A stretch of 64,000 nucleotides of DNA. Origin: Sulfurimonas autotrophica DSM 16294. Lineage in GTDB: Bacteria; Campylobacterota; Campylobacteria; Campylobacterales; Sulfurimonadaceae. Shown in pieces: positions 56,760 to 64,000 of this stretch. Positions within the stretch are counted from its first letter, which is position 1, and each line of letters starts with the position of its first letter. Where the stretch lies: the NCBI RefSeq assembly GCF_000147355.1, contig NC_014506.1, positions 1,798,001-1,862,000 of the forward strand. Direction: 5' to 3'. Made by a program: the position numbers and the translations under genes. Below the pieces are notes generated by a model that was not told the DNA's origin, did not search any database, and worked only from the letters and a program-made list of their open reading frames with translations.

Positions 56760-57965
56760 TTAGAATCTTACTTCGGCAGTAAGCATATATGCCGTACCGT
56801 TATTTATTTCTTTCGCACTGCCTGCTTCGTTGTCAGTAATAATTGCATTGGCAACCCATTGAACATTTTTGTTCATTTCCCATGCTGCACCTATAAGATA
56901 ACCTCTATCTTCACGTTCTGCACTTACACCGTTATATGTAGTTTTAGTTTTCGGTGTCCAAGAATCATAACGAGCAAAACATCTGTACTCTTTTTCTTCA
57001 CCTAAACGATACTCTGCATTCACGCTGTAACCATCACCTGATTGTTTTGATACATTATTAGCAATATCCGAAGTATCTTTTGAGTATACATATTGCGCTG
57101 CAACTAAGAATGAAGGTTGATTATATACAGTATGTAATCCACCAAAAATTAAATCTTGTTGTTCAGTTACTGTACCCACCGTTACAGATTTATGTCCTTG
57201 ATTATACTGACCAAAGAAAGATGCATCCCAATAAGTTTTTTTCGTTTGTTTATCTTTACCGTCTACACCCATTAAGTGAGCAGTTGTTCTCCACTCAAAA
57301 CTCATACCGTTACCATTGCTTGCAGAATGGTATCCTTCACCGTTAAACAATCCATAATCAGCATCAAAATATTGTGTTCTTGTTTTAAACATCACACCGA
57401 AGTCAGCAGAGTTTGACAAGTCTGGCCCGTGTGCTTTATCTTCAATAAGAATTTTAGAAATATTACGGAAATACCAAGCATTATGCTCTTCATAATCATG
57501 CCAAGGACGGTGAGCAAGACCGATTTCAACACCTGTGTTTGCAAATACGTTATTTAAGAAAAGATATGCATATTTTGCACGTACTTTTTCATCACCTGTT
57601 ACATCTTTAGATATATCAAATGTAATGCGGTAGTATGATTTAGAGTCATCTAAAAGGTATGCTTTAAGTTGAAAGTATGCACGACGAATTTCAAATTCTG
57701 ATGTATCTTTATTCGAGTTTATTGAACCGTCTGCTAAAGTAGAATCATAATCATTATATGTATACCCTAAATATGTTAACCCTGAAAACTTTAATTTATC
57801 AGCTTTTGAAAATACTGATGTCGGAGTTTTAATAAGAGTGCGTCCCTCAGCAGATTTTGTAAATACTTGACCGTTTGCGTCTTGGTATAATTTAGTAGCA
57901 CCCGCATTTGCAGCAACTGAGCCCAGAGTTAAAGCAGCTAAAGCTGATAAAACGATTTTTTTCAT
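56760..57965 (-). CDS. Porin of the phosphate-selective (OprO/OprP-like) type
   Basis: A 401-residue outer membrane barrel. The signal peptide is MKKIVLSALAALTLGSVAANA (about 21 residues); the mature protein has EFEIRRAYFQLKAYL (about 90-104) and GLAHRPWHDYEEHNAWYFR, typical of Porin_O_P proteins, and ends in a C-terminal Phe strand (TAEVRF). A Pho-type box and -10 lie upstream, so phosphate starvation probably induces it and phosphate is the likely solute. Its first 39 coding bases are identical to those of the porin at 58577. It is read away from the small secreted gene. Confidence 0.82.
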   Translation of the reverse strand: MKKIVLSALAALTLGSVAANAGATKLYQDANGQVFTKSAEGRTLIKTPTSVFSKADKLKFSGLTYLGYTYNDYDSTLADGSINSNKDTSEFEIRRAYFQLKAYLLDDSKSYYRITFDISKDVTGDEKVRAKYAYLFLNNVFANTGVEIGLAHRPWHDYEEHNAWYFRNISKILIEDKAHGPDLSNSADFGVMFKTRTQYFDADYGLFNGEGYHSASNGNGMSFEWRTTAHLMGVDGKDKQTKKTYWDASFFGQYNQGHKSVTVGTVTEQQDLIFGGLHTVYNQPSFLVAAQYVYSKDTSDIANNVSKQSGDGYSVNAEYRLGEEKEYRCFARYDSWTPKTKTTYNGVSAEREDRGYLIGAAWEMNKNVQWVANAIITDNEAGSAKEINNGTAYMLTAEVRF

Positions 57966-58002: not shown

Positions 58003-58035
58003 AGTATAAAATGTCTAGGTTACATAAAGATTACA
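58003..58035 (-). promoter_or_regulatory. Pho-type box and -10 of the first porin gene
   Basis: On the minus strand, TGTAATC (58035-58029) and TGTAACC (58024-58018) start 11 bases apart; the -10 TATACT (58008-58003) begins after nine bases. The box takes the place of a -35, as in PhoB-activated promoters. Confidence 0.72.
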
Positions 58036-58050
58036 AAGATACTTTCATTT

Positions 58051-58083
58051 TGTAACCTTGTTGTAATCTTCTTTTTCTATTAT
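58051..58083 (+). promoter_or_regulatory. Pho-type box and -10 of the small secreted gene
   Basis: TGTAACC (58051-58057) and TGTAATC (58062-58068) start 11 bases apart; the -10 TATTAT (58078-58083) begins after nine bases. It is divergent from, and 16 bases away from, the porin box. Confidence 0.7.
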
Positions 58084-58118
58084 TGCGGCATCAATCTACA
58101 AAGGGAGCAAAGAAAGTT

Positions 58119-58415
58119 ATGACAAAAAATAAAATTAAAGAACTACTTAGTATTACTATGATTATTTTTTCTTTATTTCTTTTTGCAACTCCTAGTGTAG
58201 ATACAAGTTTTTTTGATGCAAGTAGTGAAAAAGTTTTAGATCTTGAAAACGAAACAGAGCAAGAACATGATGAAGAAAAAAAAGAGTTTACTCTTTTTAA
58301 CACTTTTTCATTTTATCGTCTCTTTACATGTAAACAAAAACCTGTATATCACGTATGCTTGCAAAGCTATCATAACAACTTATCTTTATTTAAACCACCA
58401 ATACTACACTCTTAA
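58119..58415 (+). CDS. Small secreted protein, probably phosphate-regulated, unrecognised
   Basis: A 98-residue protein with an N-terminal hydrophobic segment (about 8-25) that looks like a signal peptide or anchor, an acidic stretch (about 40-56: Glu/Asp-rich with EQEHDEEKKE) and a C-terminal part with two cysteines (FTCKQKPVYHVC). The start is the ATG preceded by GGGAG; a TTG 12 codons earlier is in frame but unlikely. Its promoter carries a Pho-type box. It lies between two porin genes. No family is recognised. Confidence 0.6.
   Translation: MTKNKIKELLSITMIIFSLFLFATPSVDTSFFDASSEKVLDLENETEQEHDEEKKEFTLFNTFSFYRLFTCKQKPVYHVCLQSYHNNLSLFKPPILHS
58324..58333. repeat. TTACATGTAA palindrome
   Basis: Exact copy, extended to TTTACATGTAAA at 58323-58334, in the small secreted gene; encodes Phe-Thr-Cys-Lys. 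Confidence 0.75.
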
Positions 58416-58444
58416 ACACTAACTATTTCATTATATTTTAAAGT

Positions 58445-58511
58445 TTGAACTCATAGATACTGTTTTCTATCTGTTTGTTCACCTTTTCGAATTCCCTGTC
58501 TATAGGTTCAA
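58445..58511 (+). promoter_or_regulatory. Leader region of the second porin with imperfect inverted repeat
   Basis: TTGAACTCATAGAT (58445-58458) and GTCTATAGGTTCAA (58498-58511) are an imperfect inverted repeat, 11 of 14 matching, separated by about 39 bases. No Pho-type box is visible between 58416 and 58576. The repeat could be an operator or a terminator for the preceding gene. Confidence 0.3.
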
Positions 58512-58560
58512 CTTTACAATATATATAAATTCAATTTTACATCTATTCAAAGCAAAATAA

Positions 58561-58615
58561 AAAAAGGACTTCAAAAATGAAAAAAATCGTTTTATCAGCT
58601 TTAGCTGCTTTAACT
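58561..58615 (+). repeat. Inverted copy of the porin leader repeat (right)
   Basis: Partner of 57927-57981. The two copies face each other across 579 bases that hold both divergent Pho boxes, the small secreted gene and the promoter region of the second porin. Confidence 0.9.
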
Positions 58616-59728
58616 ATAACAACTGCCATCAATGCAGAAACAACGACAGAGGTTTCTAATACAGAAAAAAACGTTCTAGATAGAATTCATTTCAAAGGTG
58701 ATCTGAGATTAAGATATGAAAGTAAAGAAACTTTTTATAAAGATGGAACCGAAAGTACAAACAAATCAACGTATCACAATAGATATAGATTAAGATTAGT
58801 GTCCGCTATTGATTTAACTACAAATCTAAAATTTGACGCTGGTATGAGAAGTGGCTATGGCAACCCGACTTCAGGGAATCAAACATTTCTGGATAATAAA
58901 GCTTTAAGTAATTACTTTTGGCAATCACTGAGAATCAATATTTTAGGCTTTACGTATAAAAATGGAGACTCTACAATAAAAGTTGGAAGACATCCATATA
59001 TGATATATAGACCGATTAAGTCACAACTTATTTGGGATAATGATATCTCATTTAATGGCGTAAGTTATAACTATGAAAATGACTCTTTAAGCATTAACTT
59101 AGGTATCAATCAACCAACGTATGCTGAACAGGTTACTGCAAAAGATACTATCAACCTCTATTTTGTACAATACGTACAGAAAATAAAATTAGAAAAATCT
59201 CAATTAAATGTAGGTGCAGGTATTTATTATTATGACGGTATAAAAGGAAATACACCTATTTATGGCACTAATAAAGGTACAGGTATGGGTAATACTTTGG
59301 TAAACGGTGTGTTTAAAAATGATTATCACATTGCAGAAGCATTTACAGAACTTAAGTTTAAAGATGTGTTTGGTAAACCACTTACACTCGCTGCCGGAAT
59401 GGCATATAATACTGCAGCCAGTGATAAAAACTTTGGGTATGATTTGGCATTTCAAGTAGGTAAAGCAAAAAAAGTTCATGATTGGCAGGTAAAGTATTCT
59501 TATACTGATCTTCAAGCAGATGCAGTACTTGGTGCTCACAGCGACTCTGATAATTTTGGTGGTGGTACTGCTGCTAAAGGACATGCAATTAGAACAAAAT
59601 ATAAATTTGGCAAAAACACATACCTTGCTGGAACATTCTTTTTCAATACACTTTATGCAGGCAAAAAAGATGGTAAACCAGAAGCAGATTATGAACGTGT
59701 ACAATTGGATGCTATCATAAAGTTTTAA
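58577..59728 (+). CDS. Putative outer membrane porin
   Basis: A 383-residue barrel with signal peptide MKKIVLSALAALTITTAINA and mature start near ETTTEV. It has HFKGDLRLRYESKETF (about 38-53), NRYRLRLVSAIDL, KVGRHPYMI and the C-terminal strand YERVQLDAIIKF with terminal Phe. This resembles alternating-strand putative porins of Campylobacterota and differs from the first porin beyond the leader. AAGGA precedes the ATG. The substrate is unknown; its place beside pst suggests phosphate or a related anion. Confidence 0.75.
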   Translation: MKKIVLSALAALTITTAINAETTTEVSNTEKNVLDRIHFKGDLRLRYESKETFYKDGTESTNKSTYHNRYRLRLVSAIDLTTNLKFDAGMRSGYGNPTSGNQTFLDNKALSNYFWQSLRINILGFTYKNGDSTIKVGRHPYMIYRPIKSQLIWDNDISFNGVSYNYENDSLSINLGINQPTYAEQVTAKDTINLYFVQYVQKIKLEKSQLNVGAGIYYYDGIKGNTPIYGTNKGTGMGNTLVNGVFKNDYHIAEAFTELKFKDVFGKPLTLAAGMAYNTAASDKNFGYDLAFQVGKAKKVHDWQVKYSYTDLQADAVLGAHSDSDNFGGGTAAKGHAIRTKYKFGKNTYLAGTFFFNTLYAGKKDGKPEADYERVQLDAIIKF

Positions 59729-59748
59729 TACACAAATTTCAAATTTTA

Positions 59749-59781
59749 TGTAATCAATTTGTAACCAAACTACTTTATACT
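59749..59781 (+). promoter_or_regulatory. Pho-type box and -10 of pstS
   Basis: TGTAATC (59749-59755) and TGTAACC (59760-59766) start 11 bases apart; the -10 TATACT (59776-59781) follows after nine bases. The pstS ATG is 30 bases further on. Confidence 0.78.
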
Positions 59782-59811
59782 TTCACAACTTAAATTTAAA
59801 AGGTGTAATAA

Positions 59812-60816
59812 ATGACAAAAGTAATCAAACTCGCTCTTGCTGCTTCAGTACTTGTCGGTGGACTTAGTGCAAACGATGTAATCAAAGGAAGCGGTGCTTC
59901 TTTTCCATACAGCGTTTATCAAAAATGGACAAAAGCTTACTATAAAGCAACCGGTATTAAAGTTGACTATATTTCTAAAGGGTCTTCTAAAGGTATCAAA
60001 GATGCAAAAGCAAGACAAGTTGATTTTGCCGGTACTGATAAACCTTTATCACCTAAAGCGCTTAAAAAGTACAATTTATACCAATTTCCTGGTGTTGTCG
60101 GTGCAATTACAATGGGTTACAACCTTCCGGGTGTTTCTAACTTAAAATTAAGCAGAAGTGCAATCGTTGCCATTTCTGAAGGTAAAGTAAAATACTGGGA
60201 TAACAAGCTTATAACTAATGCGAACAAAGACTTACATCTTCCACACGAAAAAGTTACTTTCGTTCACCGTGCAGACGGTTCGGGTACGACTTTTAACTAT
60301 ACATACTTCTTAAGTAAAGTTTCTAAAAATTGGAGACACACATATGGTGCTAAGAAATCTCTTAACTGGCCTGGTCGCCAGCATATAGGCGGAAACAAAA
60401 ACACAGGTGTCGCAAGTTTAATTAAGCAGACTCCTTACTCTGTCGGTTATATTGACTATGCTGATGCACAAAAAAACGGCATCATTATGGCTGCAGTTGA
60501 AAACAAAGCTGGCAAATACATTAAACCTGAATTAAAAGCATTTCAAACAGCGGCTGCAAAAGCGAGTTTAGACCCTAAAAAAGATTTTTATTCAGTAATT
60601 GCCGACCCTGCAGGTGCTAACTCTTACCCGATTGTAGCGGCTACATTCATCTTAGTTCCTGCAGAAAAACCCCAAATGGATAAAAAAGTTACAGCATTTT
60701 TTGACTGGTCATACAAAAACGGTCAAGAGATTGCAAAAAGCTTAGGTTTTGTTCCATTACCAGATAGTTTAACTAACAAAATTAGCAAATACTGGGAACA
60801 AAAAGAAATTAAATAA
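59812..60816 (+). CDS. pstS: Phosphate-binding periplasmic protein
   Basis: A 334-residue high-affinity phosphate receptor of the PstSCAB transporter. It has the signal peptide MTKVIKLALAASVLVGGLSA (about 20 residues), then the pstS start IKGSGASFPYSVYQKW with the phosphate-binding Gly-Ser-Gly-Ala-Ser, DFAGTDKPLS, VHRADGSGTTFNYTYFL and VGYIDYADA. The protein is basic and has no cysteine. It is followed by a hairpin that may limit read-through into pstC. Confidence 0.95.
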   Translation: MTKVIKLALAASVLVGGLSANDVIKGSGASFPYSVYQKWTKAYYKATGIKVDYISKGSSKGIKDAKARQVDFAGTDKPLSPKALKKYNLYQFPGVVGAITMGYNLPGVSNLKLSRSAIVAISEGKVKYWDNKLITNANKDLHLPHEKVTFVHRADGSGTTFNYTYFLSKVSKNWRHTYGAKKSLNWPGRQHIGGNKNTGVASLIKQTPYSVGYIDYADAQKNGIIMAAVENKAGKYIKPELKAFQTAAAKASLDPKKDFYSVIADPAGANSYPIVAATFILVPAEKPQMDKKVTAFFDWSYKNGQEIAKSLGFVPLPDSLTNKISKYWEQKEIK

Positions 60817-60840
60817 ATTTCAAATTTCATTCTCTCTTTA

Positions 60841-60867
60841 TTATGTCACACTTCTCATGTGACATAA
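60841..60867 (+). terminator. Hairpin between pstS and pstC
   Basis: TTATGTCACA (60841-60850) and TGTGACATAA (60858-60867) form a perfect ten-pair stem with a seven-base loop, 25 bases after the pstS stop. A weak T-rich tail follows. It would allow more PstS than PstC to be made. Confidence 0.65.
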
Positions 60868-60881
60868 ATTTATTCTCCTTA

Positions 60882-60914
60882 TGTAATCTCTTTGTAATTA
60901 AATTTTTATATAAT
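60882..60914 (+). promoter_or_regulatory. Pho-type box and -10 of pstC
   Basis: TGTAATC (60882-60888) and TGTAATT (60893-60899) start 11 bases apart; the -10 TATAAT (60909-60914) follows after nine bases. It lies directly after the pstS hairpin, so pstCAB-phoU probably has its own phosphate-controlled start. Confidence 0.72.
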
Positions 60915-60946: not shown

Positions 60947-61894
60947 ATGGAAAAAATATTTCAAAAGCTCTCTTTTTCAAGTGCTTCTCTTGTACTAATT
61001 CTTCTGATTGGTATATTCATTACATTGTTTAATGCTGCCAAACCTGCGATTGATGAGTTTGGACTGCATTTTCTTGCTGATCCTACATGGAACAAAGAAG
61101 TTGTCATCGACACACCAAACACGACTGCATCGGCTGCAATGAGTAATGACATTGCCGATGAAGACGATATGCTGCTTGATGAAGATGATGAAGATTCTTT
61201 AAACACAAAAACAATATACGGCGGACTTGTACCGATAATCGGAACAATACTCTCTACACTGATTGCTCTGCTTTTTGCTCTGCCTATTGCTATGGGTATT
61301 GCTGTATTTTTAGCTGAAATCGCATCAAAAACAGTCTCAAAATTTGTCGGCATGGCCATTGAGCTTTTGGCTGCGATTCCAAGTATCATATTCGGTATGT
61401 GGGGGCTCTATTATTTTGCACCGATTATCGCAAATACTTTCGGCGGTTATCAAGTATCACTTCTCACTGCAGGACTTGTGCTTGGTGTTATGATTCTTCC
61501 GTTTATGGCAGCTATTACTCGTGATAGTATGAACACAACGCCTGATGTACTCAAAGAATCTGCTTATGCTTTGGGGGCAACTAAATTTGAGGTAGTAAAA
61601 GATGTTATCTTTCCTTACTCGAAAGTCGGTATTATCGGTTCGATTATTTTAGCACTCGGACGTGCTTTGGGTGAGACAATGGCGGTTGCTTTTCTTATCG
61701 GTGCGGTTTATTCTCTGCCTGAGAAGATTACAGATCCGACTATTTCCATCCCTGTTGCTATGGCTGTAAACTTTGGTGAAGCCAGCGGACTTGGTGAGAG
61801 TGCCCTGTTTTACTTAGGTCTCATACTCTTTGTCATGAGCTTTATTATCATTTCAGTTGCTAAATTTTACTTTTTAAAAAGGGTTAAAGTATGA
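60947..61894 (+). CDS. pstC: Phosphate ABC transporter permease PstC
   Basis: A 315-residue permease with six helices. A BPD_transp segment is visible: EVVKDVIFPYSKVGIIGSIILALGRALGETMAVAFLIG (about 204-241). Residues about 54-86, between the first and second helices on the periplasmic side, hold an acidic insert (EDDMLLDEDDEDS), longer and more acidic than usual. Its start follows the hairpin and box described before it. Its stop overlaps the pstA ATG by four bases. Confidence 0.93.
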   Translation: MEKIFQKLSFSSASLVLILLIGIFITLFNAAKPAIDEFGLHFLADPTWNKEVVIDTPNTTASAAMSNDIADEDDMLLDEDDEDSLNTKTIYGGLVPIIGTILSTLIALLFALPIAMGIAVFLAEIASKTVSKFVGMAIELLAAIPSIIFGMWGLYYFAPIIANTFGGYQVSLLTAGLVLGVMILPFMAAITRDSMNTTPDVLKESAYALGATKFEVVKDVIFPYSKVGIIGSIILALGRALGETMAVAFLIGAVYSLPEKITDPTISIPVAMAVNFGEASGLGESALFYLGLILFVMSFIIISVAKFYFLKRVKV

Positions 61895-62697
61895 GACTTG
61901 TATTAAACAAAATATTTTTAGCTCTTTCTGTACTTTCCGCACTCCTTGGGCTAGGCTTTTTAGGCTGGATACTTGTTACACTTTTTATTGAGGGGCTCTC
62001 ATCACTGCATTTTAGCCTTTTTATCAATGACCTGGTTGACGGTGGACTTAGAAACCTTATTGTAGGGCAGCTTATACTTGCATTTTTAGCCGGTGCTATC
62101 GGTATACCTCTTGGAATGCTTGCAGGAATTTATATTAGAGAATACGGCAGAGGAAAATATGCGGAGTTTATCAGAGATTTAAGTGATATTATGATGTCTG
62201 CACCGTCTATTGTTATCGGTGCTTTTGTATATGCCATAGCCGTTGCACCTTTTGGCGGAGCAAACGGTTTTGCCGGGATATTGGCACTTTCTATTATGAT
62301 GATACCTATCATCATCAACACAACAGACTCAATGCTTTCCCTTGTTCCAAAAGAGCTTCGCGAAGCCGGAATTGCACTCGGCGCTTCAAAATACAGAGTT
62401 ATTTTGGATATTGTCATAAAAGCTGCTAAAGTCGGGATTATGACCGGAGTTTTACTTGCCTTTGCAAGAATTGCCGGAGAAACTGCACCGCTGCTCTTTA
62501 CAAGTGAAACAAGTAACTACTTTAGTCTGGACTTAACACAAAGTTTTCCGTCTTTGACTGTCAGTATCTATAACCTTGCAAATGAACCTGAAGAGTCAAG
62601 CCGTGATTTAGCATGGGCTGCATCATTTATACTTACTATGATGGTTTTAGTTATCAACTTAGTAGGTCGATTTATCACAAGAAACAAACATAAATAA
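61891..62697 (+). CDS. pstA: Phosphate ABC transporter permease PstA
   Basis: A 268-residue permease partner of PstC with six helices. It has the EAA-type loop [32 protein letters not shown] (about 155-186) and [18 protein letters not shown] (about 188-205), typical of PstA. The length is normal. It is followed by pstB after 13 bases, with an AAGGAAA site. Confidence 0.94.
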
Positions 62698-62710
62698 GGA
62701 AATAATAATT

Positions 62711-63493
62711 ATGCCTGTAATGAATATTAAAAAATTCTCTTTTACATACCCAGGGGTAGATGAACCCTCACTTAAAAACATAACTCTACCTATAGAAAAA
62801 AACAAAATTACGGCGCTTATCGGTCCCAGTGGCTGCGGTAAATCTACACTTTTGCGTTCAATGAACCGAATCCATGACCTCTATCCGGGAAATAAATATG
62901 ACGGAAAGATTGAACTGCTTGATGAAGCGAGCGGAAAATACAAAAACATTCTTGAAATAAAAAAAGAGAACGAGTTTATAAAACTGCGCCAGCAGGTCGG
63001 AATGATTTTTCAAAAACCGACACCGTTTCCTATGAGTATTTTTGACAATGTAGCATATGGGCTAAAAATTGCAGGTATTAAAAACAAAAGTGAACTCGCC
63101 GACCGCGTTGAAGCAGCACTTAAAGGCTCAGCTCTATGGAAAGAGGTGTCAGACAGACTAAATAAATCTGCTATGGGACTCTCAGGCGGGCAGCAACAAC
63201 GTTTATGTATAGCCCGTGCAGTTGCAGTAAAGCCTGAGGTACTTTTGTTTGATGAGCCGACCTCTGCTCTTGATCCGATTTCAACTGGTGCGATTGAAGA
63301 ACTGATAGTCGAGCTCAAAAAAGATGTCAGTATTGCCATAGTTACACATAACATGCAGCAAGCTTCTCGAATAAGTGATTATACTGCTTTTATGTATCTT
63401 GGAGATTTAATAGAGTTTGATAAAACTGAAAATATCTTTTTAAATCCGAAAGAAAAAAGAACCGAAGACTACATTACAGGTAGATTTGGATAG
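62711..63493 (+). CDS. pstB: Phosphate ABC transporter ATPase PstB
   Basis: A 260-residue ATPase. Walker A is GPSGCGKST (38-46), the Q-loop [14 protein letters not shown], the signature [14 protein letters not shown], Walker [14 protein letters not shown] and the switch His in IVTHNMQQ. The [18 protein letters not shown] segment is PstB-specific. It is cytoplasmic and partners PstC and PstA. phoU follows after 27 bases. Confidence 0.97.
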
Positions 63494-63520: not shown

Positions 63521-64000
63521 ATGTTACCGACATTTAAAACAAACCTAGACGACATAAGAGAAAAAATTACAAATATTGGAGAGAGTCTTGTAACTGCCAA
63601 TACACTCATTCTTCAAGCACTGCAAGGTTGTGATGAAGCAAAGTTCAATGAAGCAAGAAACAGTATTAAAAACATTACATCCAAAACAGATGAAATTGAC
63701 AATGCCATTATTAAAGTGCTTGCACTTTTTACACCTGAAGCAAAAGATTTGAGGCAGGTTGTTGCTTACTTCAAAATCACCAATGAACTCGCACGTGCCT
63801 GCTCAAACACAAGAAGTTTTATCCGCGGGTTTACTGATGTCTGCAAAGAACTTGACGTAAAAGAGATTAATGAGTACGCAATACTTATGCAGACCTCAAC
63901 CGTAAAAGCTATTCAAACAACCGTTAAAATGATAAACATTGATGACACGGATGAACTCCAAGAGATGTATGAAGAGGTACTTATAGAAGAGAATAAAGCT
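63521..64000 (+). CDS. phoU: PhoU-like phosphate regulator, cut by window end
   Basis: The first 160 residues of a PhoU-family helical protein. It starts MLPTFKTNLDDIREKI and has the three-helix pattern TNIGESLVTANTLILQAL, then KTDEIDNAIIKVLALFTPEAKDLRQVVAYFKITNEL, where Glu/Asp of the metal site lie (about 63-95). The ATG follows AAGGAGCCGGACAA, a good ribosome binding site. PhoU normally keeps the PhoR-PhoB pathway off when phosphate is plentiful. The C-terminus lies outside the window. Confidence 0.85.
   Translation, partial: MLPTFKTNLDDIREKITNIGESLVTANTLILQALQGCDEAKFNEARNSIKNITSKTDEIDNAIIKVLALFTPEAKDLRQVVAYFKITNELARACSNTRSFIRGFTDVCKELDVKEINEYAILMQTSTVKAIQTTVKMINIDDTDELQEMYEEVLIEENKA

Follow-up and report, generated by a model that had tools for sequence, protein, structure and literature searches.

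The stretch of DNA analysed here, 64,000 nucleotides (nt) of Sulfurimonas autotrophica DSM 16294 (G000:C1:1798001-1862000, within one contig of 2,153,198 bases; 'the window' below), carries near its end a group of porin and phosphate-transport genes. Four promoters in this group, those of porin1, a small-protein gene, pstS and pstC, share one arrangement of two TGTAAYC-type half-sites followed by a -10 element. In window coordinates, the genes and the boxes are as follows.

56760..57965, minus strand: porin1, 401 amino acids, signal-peptide-like start (by eye)
58119..58415, plus strand: small-protein gene, 98 amino acids, N-terminal hydrophobic segment (by eye)
58577..59728, plus strand: porin2, 383 amino acids, PF16930 putative porin
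59812..60816, plus strand: pstS, phosphate-binding protein, TIGR00975 at 318.7 bits (cut-off 205)
60947..61894, plus strand: pstC, TIGR02138 at 258.2 bits (cut-off 196.45)
61891..62697, plus strand: pstA, named from gene order alone, an order kept in relatives
62711..63493, plus strand: pstB, likewise named from gene order alone, with the order kept in relatives
63521..64000, plus strand, continuing past the window end: phoU, best model TIGR02135 PhoU at 63.5 bits, short of the cut-off of 130
58035-58003, minus strand: porin1 box and -10, TGTAATC TTTA TGTAACC TAGACATTT TATACT
58051-58083, plus strand: small-gene box and -10, TGTAACC TTGT TGTAATC TTCTTTTTC TATTAT
59749-59781, plus strand: pstS box and -10, TGTAATC AATT TGTAACC AAACTACTT TATACT
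60882-60914, plus strand: pstC box and -10, TGTAATC TCTT TGTAATT AAATTTTTA TATAAT

Read directly, the four promoters have the common layout TGTAAYC-N4-TGTAAYC-N9-TANNNT, with pstC one letter off: its second half-site, TGTAATT, is the only one of the window's eight that deviates from TGTAAYC. A first-pass annotation, made from the letters of the window, had placed four such 33-mers at these positions and strands and had counted seven exact half-sites, with the downstream one of pstC ending in T; both statements are exact to the base. With the seventh half-site letter freed so that the pstC site counts, the 33-nt pattern occurs four times, against a mean of 0.01 (maximum 1) in 200 dinucleotide shuffles of the window, and the strict pattern occurs three times against none in the same number of shuffles. 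The four shared promoter sites are not due to chance. The porin1 and small-gene boxes (58003-58083) are divergent and lie 15 nt apart. Within the window, Rfam gave no RNA family at its gathering score.

A scan of the whole genome with the 33-nt pattern, -10 element included and up to three mismatches allowed, returned three sites without mismatch, two with one, two with two and 31 with three; the pattern read backwards gave 21 sites in total. All five sites with 0-1 mismatches fall within G000:C1:1856003-1867832, about 12 kb around pst, where they precede porin1, the small gene, pstS, pstC and olsF, and in all five the box stands nine nt from its -10. As every genome site of this quality lies near pst, with a control total of 21, the motif is not common at random positions; the first-pass annotation had named the opposite outcome as fatal to its proposal. 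Its four promoters are all real, but the genome total is five, the fifth lying past the window end:

G000:C1:1867800-1867832, 5.8 kb past the window end: olsF box and -10, TGTAACC TCCT CGTAATC TCTGTTTAA TATAAT

Without the -10, the 18-mer with up to two mismatches has 45 sites in the genome; the backwards control has 40, which puts loose matches at background level. The three exact ones are all in the window. The 38 two-mismatch 18-mers were therefore rejected as further regulon members. Both 33-mers with two mismatches lie inside coding frames and were also set aside, as was a two-mismatch 18-mer (L055:5431-5448) before the regulator gene at L055:5466, which ends 18 nt before the start codon, has AATAAC at the -10 position and overlaps the start of a divergent gene.

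The olsF gene, of 570 codons, begins 28 nt after the last base of the fifth site. Its product matches NF052615 (OlsF bifunctional ornithine lipid synthase) at 823.4 bits (cut-off 620) over residues 1-570 of 570 and carries the PF19576 and PF13444 domains. A second OlsF match in the genome, at G000:C1:904405-906129 (L327), scores 635 bits and is 40% identical to the first. OlsF is present in 62 of 135 Sulfurimonas genomes, and a box precedes 17 of the 30 best-scoring olsF genes of the genus, our own counted, when 12 or more of the 14 half-site letters and four of the six -10 letters have to agree. The Vibrio cholerae OlsF protein VC0489 is PhoB-controlled and solely makes the ornithine lipids formed under phosphate limitation (PMC12186959; PMC numbers here and below refer to excerpts of the papers). 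That species too has two OlsF genes, one of them serving phosphate limitation (PMC12186959); it belongs to another lineage, and phosphate control of Sulfurimonas olsF is predicted from the box alone. Ornithine lipids are phosphorus-free, and in S. gotlandica grown with nitrate they made up 40% of lipids (PMC9789136), a value from one culture on which the boxed olsF may bear. The excerpts of that paper make no mention of olsF, and their 'phosphate' passages concern buffer, lipid headgroup and references. We predict that Sulfurimonas with a boxed olsF would make ornithine lipid under phosphate limitation.

PhoB-type boxes replace the -35 element and stand about 9-10 nt from a sigma-70 -10, as in the Escherichia coli phoA promoter (NC_000913), which reads TGTCATA AAGT TGTCACG GCCGAGACT TATAGT. 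Its geometry of 7-4-7-9-6 is identical to that of the S. autotrophica boxes. The first-pass annotation was thus right to call the spacing PhoB-type, but the 33-base architecture that it had singled out is nothing special, since phoA has exactly the same. It had also noted that the half-site differs from that of E. coli, and so it does: TGTAAYC has A as its fourth letter where TGTCAY has C, and its seventh is a conserved C. A PhoB-type Pho box is defined as two 7-nt direct repeats with a 4-nt spacer, and its consensus varies between species (PMC4415409). The boxes described here are likewise two 7-nt direct repeats with a 4-nt spacer, in an 11-nt register, and they stand before phosphate-starvation genes; because the consensus differs between species, we regard TGTAAYC as a variant and not as another kind of element.

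These sites are very probably Pho boxes. In the explanation that we consider best, and to which we give a probability of roughly 0.87, the four are minimal PhoB-type boxes under a PhoB-like regulator (L049:2627-3301) and the PhoR-like kinase of the pst operon, L046:7181-8560, which is encoded directly after phoU, outside the window. Low phosphate would be sensed via Pst/PhoU and this kinase, which would most likely phosphorylate the regulator. A regulator dimer would then bind head-to-tail to the two 7-nt half-sites, 11 nt apart and nine bases upstream of the sigma-70 -10, where they substitute for the -35 element, and would recruit RNA polymerase by standing in for the -35 contact. The predicted targets of such low-phosphate induction are porin1, the small gene (perhaps with porin2), pstS, pstCAB-phoU-kinase and olsF. 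The boxes, how well they are conserved, which genes they precede and the orthology of the regulator can be read from sequence; DNA binding, phosphotransfer from this kinase to this regulator and the response to low phosphate are predicted. A phosphate-sensing kinase and regulator over pst genes, as proposed here, are described for Campylobacter jejuni as PhosS/PhosR (PMC9449129, PMC3197622). As far as sequence can tell, this is a known switch in a new half-site spelling, and its geometry is not new; what our analysis adds is the olsF box, a series of related half-sites and a kinase-regulator pair that looks rewired.

The response regulator that the first-pass annotation had left to be found has a candidate in L049:2627-3301 (G000:C1:579627-580301), which is orthologous to pst-adjacent regulators and, of the 15 Trans_reg_C matches in the genome, is closest to E. 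coli PhoB (36%). It stands about 1.28 Mb away from pst, unlike the orthologues that adjoin pst elsewhere in the order; in an epsilonproteobacterial draft genome, too, pst reportedly has phoU and phoB as neighbours (PMC4674564). The Pho boxes might instead be bound by another of the 14 remaining OmpR-type regulators, a possibility to which the distance from the pst kinase and the lack of a box at the proposed regulator lend some substance. We nevertheless consider it unlikely. In L063 and L065, the regulator whose gene separates phoU from the kinase is 53-54% identical to L049:2627-3301, against about 31% for the next own regulator, and it alone among the own regulators passes E 1e-44 with a profile built from six Sulfurimonas regulators, three of them adjoining pst. 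Moreover, a box precedes the orthologous regulator gene in 9 of the 20 Sulfurimonas loci that retain its kinase. The same profile has a match in 56 of 121 genomes of the phylum, one each in 54; in 40 stretches around such a match, pst or phoU homologues occur in 26 and a kinase resembling the pst one stands beside the regulator in 38. The PhoB-like protein at G000:C1:579627 is therefore likely to be the regulator of the boxes. Several Sulfurimonas genomes (G001, G078, G029 and others) encode two or three members of the PhoB-like regulator family, and a third regulator type, L064:78-758, lies near porin1 with a box before it.

Within the genus, 101 of 135 Sulfurimonas genomes contain the exact 18-mer, with 165 occurrences in all against a single match for the backwards control. 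We surveyed 28 loci (L067-L094), one per genome, which hold 34 boxes if two sites with three half-sites are each counted twice. The boxes precede porin1 relatives (13, in 13 of the 28 loci), pstC (6), pstS (3), olsF (3, one of them 260 nt away), the PhoB-like regulator (2), a PiT phosphate transporter (1) and the small gene (1), that is, 29 of the 34. Six further loci, L060-L065, were picked by PstS homology alone; all six have boxes, and all six have one before pstC. The sites with three consecutive half-sites at 11-nt spacing, L081:1490-1518 before a DUF3450 gene and L083:901-929 before pstC (reverse-strand coordinates), suggest extended boxes. The exact box at L088:1501 lies some 28 nt upstream of a receptor-like gene whose HAMP match falls narrowly short of the cut-off; since C. 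jejuni Tlp2 mediates phosphate chemotaxis (PMC6250842), phosphate taxis may belong to the regulon of some Sulfurimonas.

In a sample of 397 genomes across the phylum, the exact 18-mer has 128 matches in 91 genomes, with 10 for the control. By family, it is found in 33/51 genomes of f1, 26/42 of f7, 7/22 of f10, 5/11 of f8, 3/30 of f4, 2/2 of f9, 1/1 of f12 and 1/9 of f5, and in none of f6 (0/4), f11 (0/4) or f13 (0/1). The families f3 (6/120) and f2 (7/100), probably those of Campylobacter and Helicobacter, judging from family size and number alone, together reach 13/220, against 78/177 in all other families. The proposal of a candidate Campylobacterota Pho motif thus holds in so far as a Pho-type motif stands at phosphate genes, but the motif is not phylum-wide. 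Of the 26 box loci in f7, 14 precede pstC or pstS by BLAST and two more a PstS-like gene by eye; in f3, none of four does so for pstC or pstS. With the regulator profile, the best match is 7e-89 or better in f1 and f7-f12, against values of 2e-60 to 2e-55 for the f3 g15 regulators.

The stretches around the regulator, each of 16 kb in 40 genomes, were scored for boxes, a gene counting as positive if 12 or more of 14 half-site letters fitted together with four of six in a -10 nine bases on. In the 22 stretches from families other than f2, f3 and f5, a box stands at 25 of 72 phosphate-related genes against 1 of 258 others, and 16 of the stretches have one such gene or more; the corresponding counts are 1/22 against 0/66 in f5 and 0/26 against 0/155 in f2 and f3 together. 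That boxes in several families single out phosphate uptake genes, olsF and the gene of the PhoB-like regulator makes it very improbable that we are dealing with ordinary sigma-70 promoters sharing an upstream element that has nothing to do with phosphate, for instance that of another stress regulator, even though a few boxes do stand at other genes such as the DUF3450 and receptor-like genes. Recent promoter copying in place of selection by a regulator, to which the clustering of five boxes within 12 kb might point, hardly deserves credence, as spacers and flanks vary among the five sites and f7 keeps half-sites and spacing before pstC genes only 33-37% identical to Sulfurimonas pstC.

A number of observations weigh against reading the sites as Pho boxes under this regulator and kinase. 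Neither protein reaches the cut-off of its model: the best NCBIfam model listed for L049:2627-3301 is TIGR02154 PhoB at 188.3 bits (cut-off 296.2), and because this is below the equivalog cut-off we call the regulator PhoB-like only, while the best model listed for L046:7181-8560 is TIGR02966 PhoR at 138.7 bits (cut-off 334.2). The own regulator gene has no box (best 10 of 14 letters), the other eight scored members of its clade likewise have none, and six of the nine boxed regulator loci lack a -10 at nine bases. The exact 18-mer is missing from 34 of the 135 Sulfurimonas genomes, and 5 of the 34 genus boxes stand at genes without a clear phosphate link, namely a DUF3450 gene (twice), a receptor-like gene, an unknown gene and, at a distance of 341 nt, an msrAB-like gene (by eye). 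Of the 26 box loci in f7, 9 lack a phosphate gene downstream, and in another (L114) phoU is 200 nt away. Finally, 47 of the 72 phosphate-related genes have no box, some of them because another gene leads their operon, 13 of the 30 best-scoring olsF genes fall below the box threshold, and the second OlsF gene of our genome has no Pho box.

To our knowledge, a Pho-box definition exists in this order for C. jejuni only. The PhosR box of that species, attributed to Wosten (2006), reportedly reads GTTTCNAAAANGTTTC. The S. autotrophica sites do not fit it and read TGTAAYC, against a C. jejuni-type half-site of TGTTTCC; the reported box does fit the TGTTTCC-AAAA-TGTTTCC sites of f3, in the same register. 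In three f3/f2 stretches we found TGTTTCC-AAAA-TGTTTCC or near it, with the same 7-4-7-9-6 register as our own boxes, and in f5 the half-site is TGTTAYC or near it. The sequence TGTTTCNAAAATGTTTC occurs in 11 of 120 f3 genomes at 14 sites (control 1), of which nine precede pstS by BLAST, one a PstS-like frame by eye and three an unnamed protein, with nothing behind the last. At position 1501 of three f3 loci (L229, L238 and L239), TGTTTCT-AAAA-TGTTTCY precedes an unnamed protein of 348-369 amino acids, at about 28 nt in two loci; in the third, it overlaps with the frame at its maximum length. Because the f3/f2 variant sits in the same register, promoter geometry seems to have been kept across the order while the half-site drifted from one to another of TGTAAYC, TGTTAYC and TGTTTCC. 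PMC full-text searches, which do not extend to subscription papers, listed no Pho-box definition for Sulfurimonas, and the one given here is testable for Sulfurimonas and related families. The three spellings at fixed geometry suggest a natural series for studying how OmpR-type specificity changes.

In PhoB, bases are contacted by R201 (guanine), T194 and V197 (thymines) and also R219 (PMC3973317). R201, T194 and V197 are kept in the own regulator, which reads TVNVAINRLK against TVDVHIRRLR of PhoB; in its recognition helix, N replaces D196 and A replaces H198. We examined D196N as the cause of the C-to-A change in the half-site and found it insufficient, since N196 is likewise present at loci whose half-site is TGTTAYC or TGTTTCC, and the contacts quoted are those of R201, T194, V197 and R219 (PMC3973317). 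Residue 197 may track the half-site somewhat better, with V alongside TGTAAYC and TGTTAYC and I or T alongside TGTTTCC, a hypothesis based on three loci in which such a box precedes a pstS gene close to the regulator (L182, L184 and L191).

There is no response regulator beside the pst kinase L046:7181-8560, and the regulator locus itself holds a shortened frame:

L049:3295-3684 (G000:C1:580295-580684): stub of 129 amino acids, overlapping the PhoB-like regulator gene, with a kinase-remnant-like succession of two transmembrane segments (TM1, TM2) and HAMP

In a sample of 60 Sulfurimonas genomes searched at E 1e-60, with up to 27 candidates scored per genome, so that additional matches may have escaped, 56 have one PhoR-type kinase match. 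Eighteen of these kinases belong to the pst-operon type, at 56-100% identity, and the other 38, at 36-41%, to a second type, which lies directly behind the regulator in 9 of 12 loci read. Among the 18, seven have a regulator directly before them, preceded by phoU in four and present in tandem in L311; the other 11, our own genome included, have phoU followed by the kinase without a regulator. In ten of these 11 genomes (G074 was left out) the regulator locus was examined, and in none does a full kinase stand behind the regulator. Eight of the ten have a frame of 115-133 amino acids at the kinase's overlapping position, with TM1, TM2 and a HAMP-like end but with the sensor and catalytic parts missing, and G010 and G018 have neither kinase nor stub. 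In the other genomes of the genus, the kinase is present in 20 of 20 regulator loci (19 of 463-464 amino acids, one cut by a contig end).

Stub pairs from G015, G013 and G121 give synonymous and non-synonymous divergences of dS 0.85 with dN 0.03 and dS 1.59 with dN 0.11, a sign of purifying selection in these genomes; pairs further apart approach saturation. Nine regulators from the genomes without a full kinase at this locus, G010 and G018 among them, group in one clade (support 99/95); the regulators of pst operons make up a separate clade near f7 and f12. The kinase of the own regulator appears to have been reduced to a membrane stub, and because the pst kinase has no adjoining regulator, the kinase-regulator pair looks rewired. 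We infer that, in a single event, the native pair was joined by a pst operon bringing a kinase and a regulator of its own, and that each pair lost one of its partners. One Sulfurimonas clade, to which our genome belongs, would then have a chimeric phosphate two-component system, in which the native regulator is driven by a kinase brought in by a second type of pst operon, itself now without its regulator, and a TM1-TM2-HAMP remnant under purifying selection is kept in most members; to our minds the evidence leaves this proposal evenly poised. If it is true, the kinase-less stub would represent a novel type of membrane adaptor for Pho signalling.

Several smaller points concern the genes behind the boxes. 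PstS relatives at 84-91% identity come from named Sulfurimonas. The own porin1 has no Pfam family match and no PDB match; PF07396 (phosphate-selective porin O and P) is matched by one of 11 aligned members of its family, at 1.4e-13. On these results porin1 is no more than a possible relative of OprP. The 98-amino-acid protein has no Pfam match. Porin2 has no box of its own in this genome, and a relative in G060 carries one. The divergent pair of porin1 and small-gene boxes is also present in L080; in L092, porin1 diverges directly from pstS, which raises the possibility that the small gene and porin2 were inserted between these two.

The interval between the pst operon and olsF (L046:8557-12023, minus strand) encodes a sensor-kinase-like protein of 728 amino acids and a response regulator of 427 amino acids with a GGDEF-like part (both judged by eye). 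Between this GGDEF regulator and olsF, at about L046:12133-12393 on the minus strand, lies a lysine/alanine-rich, repeat-like frame that by eye resembles histone H1.

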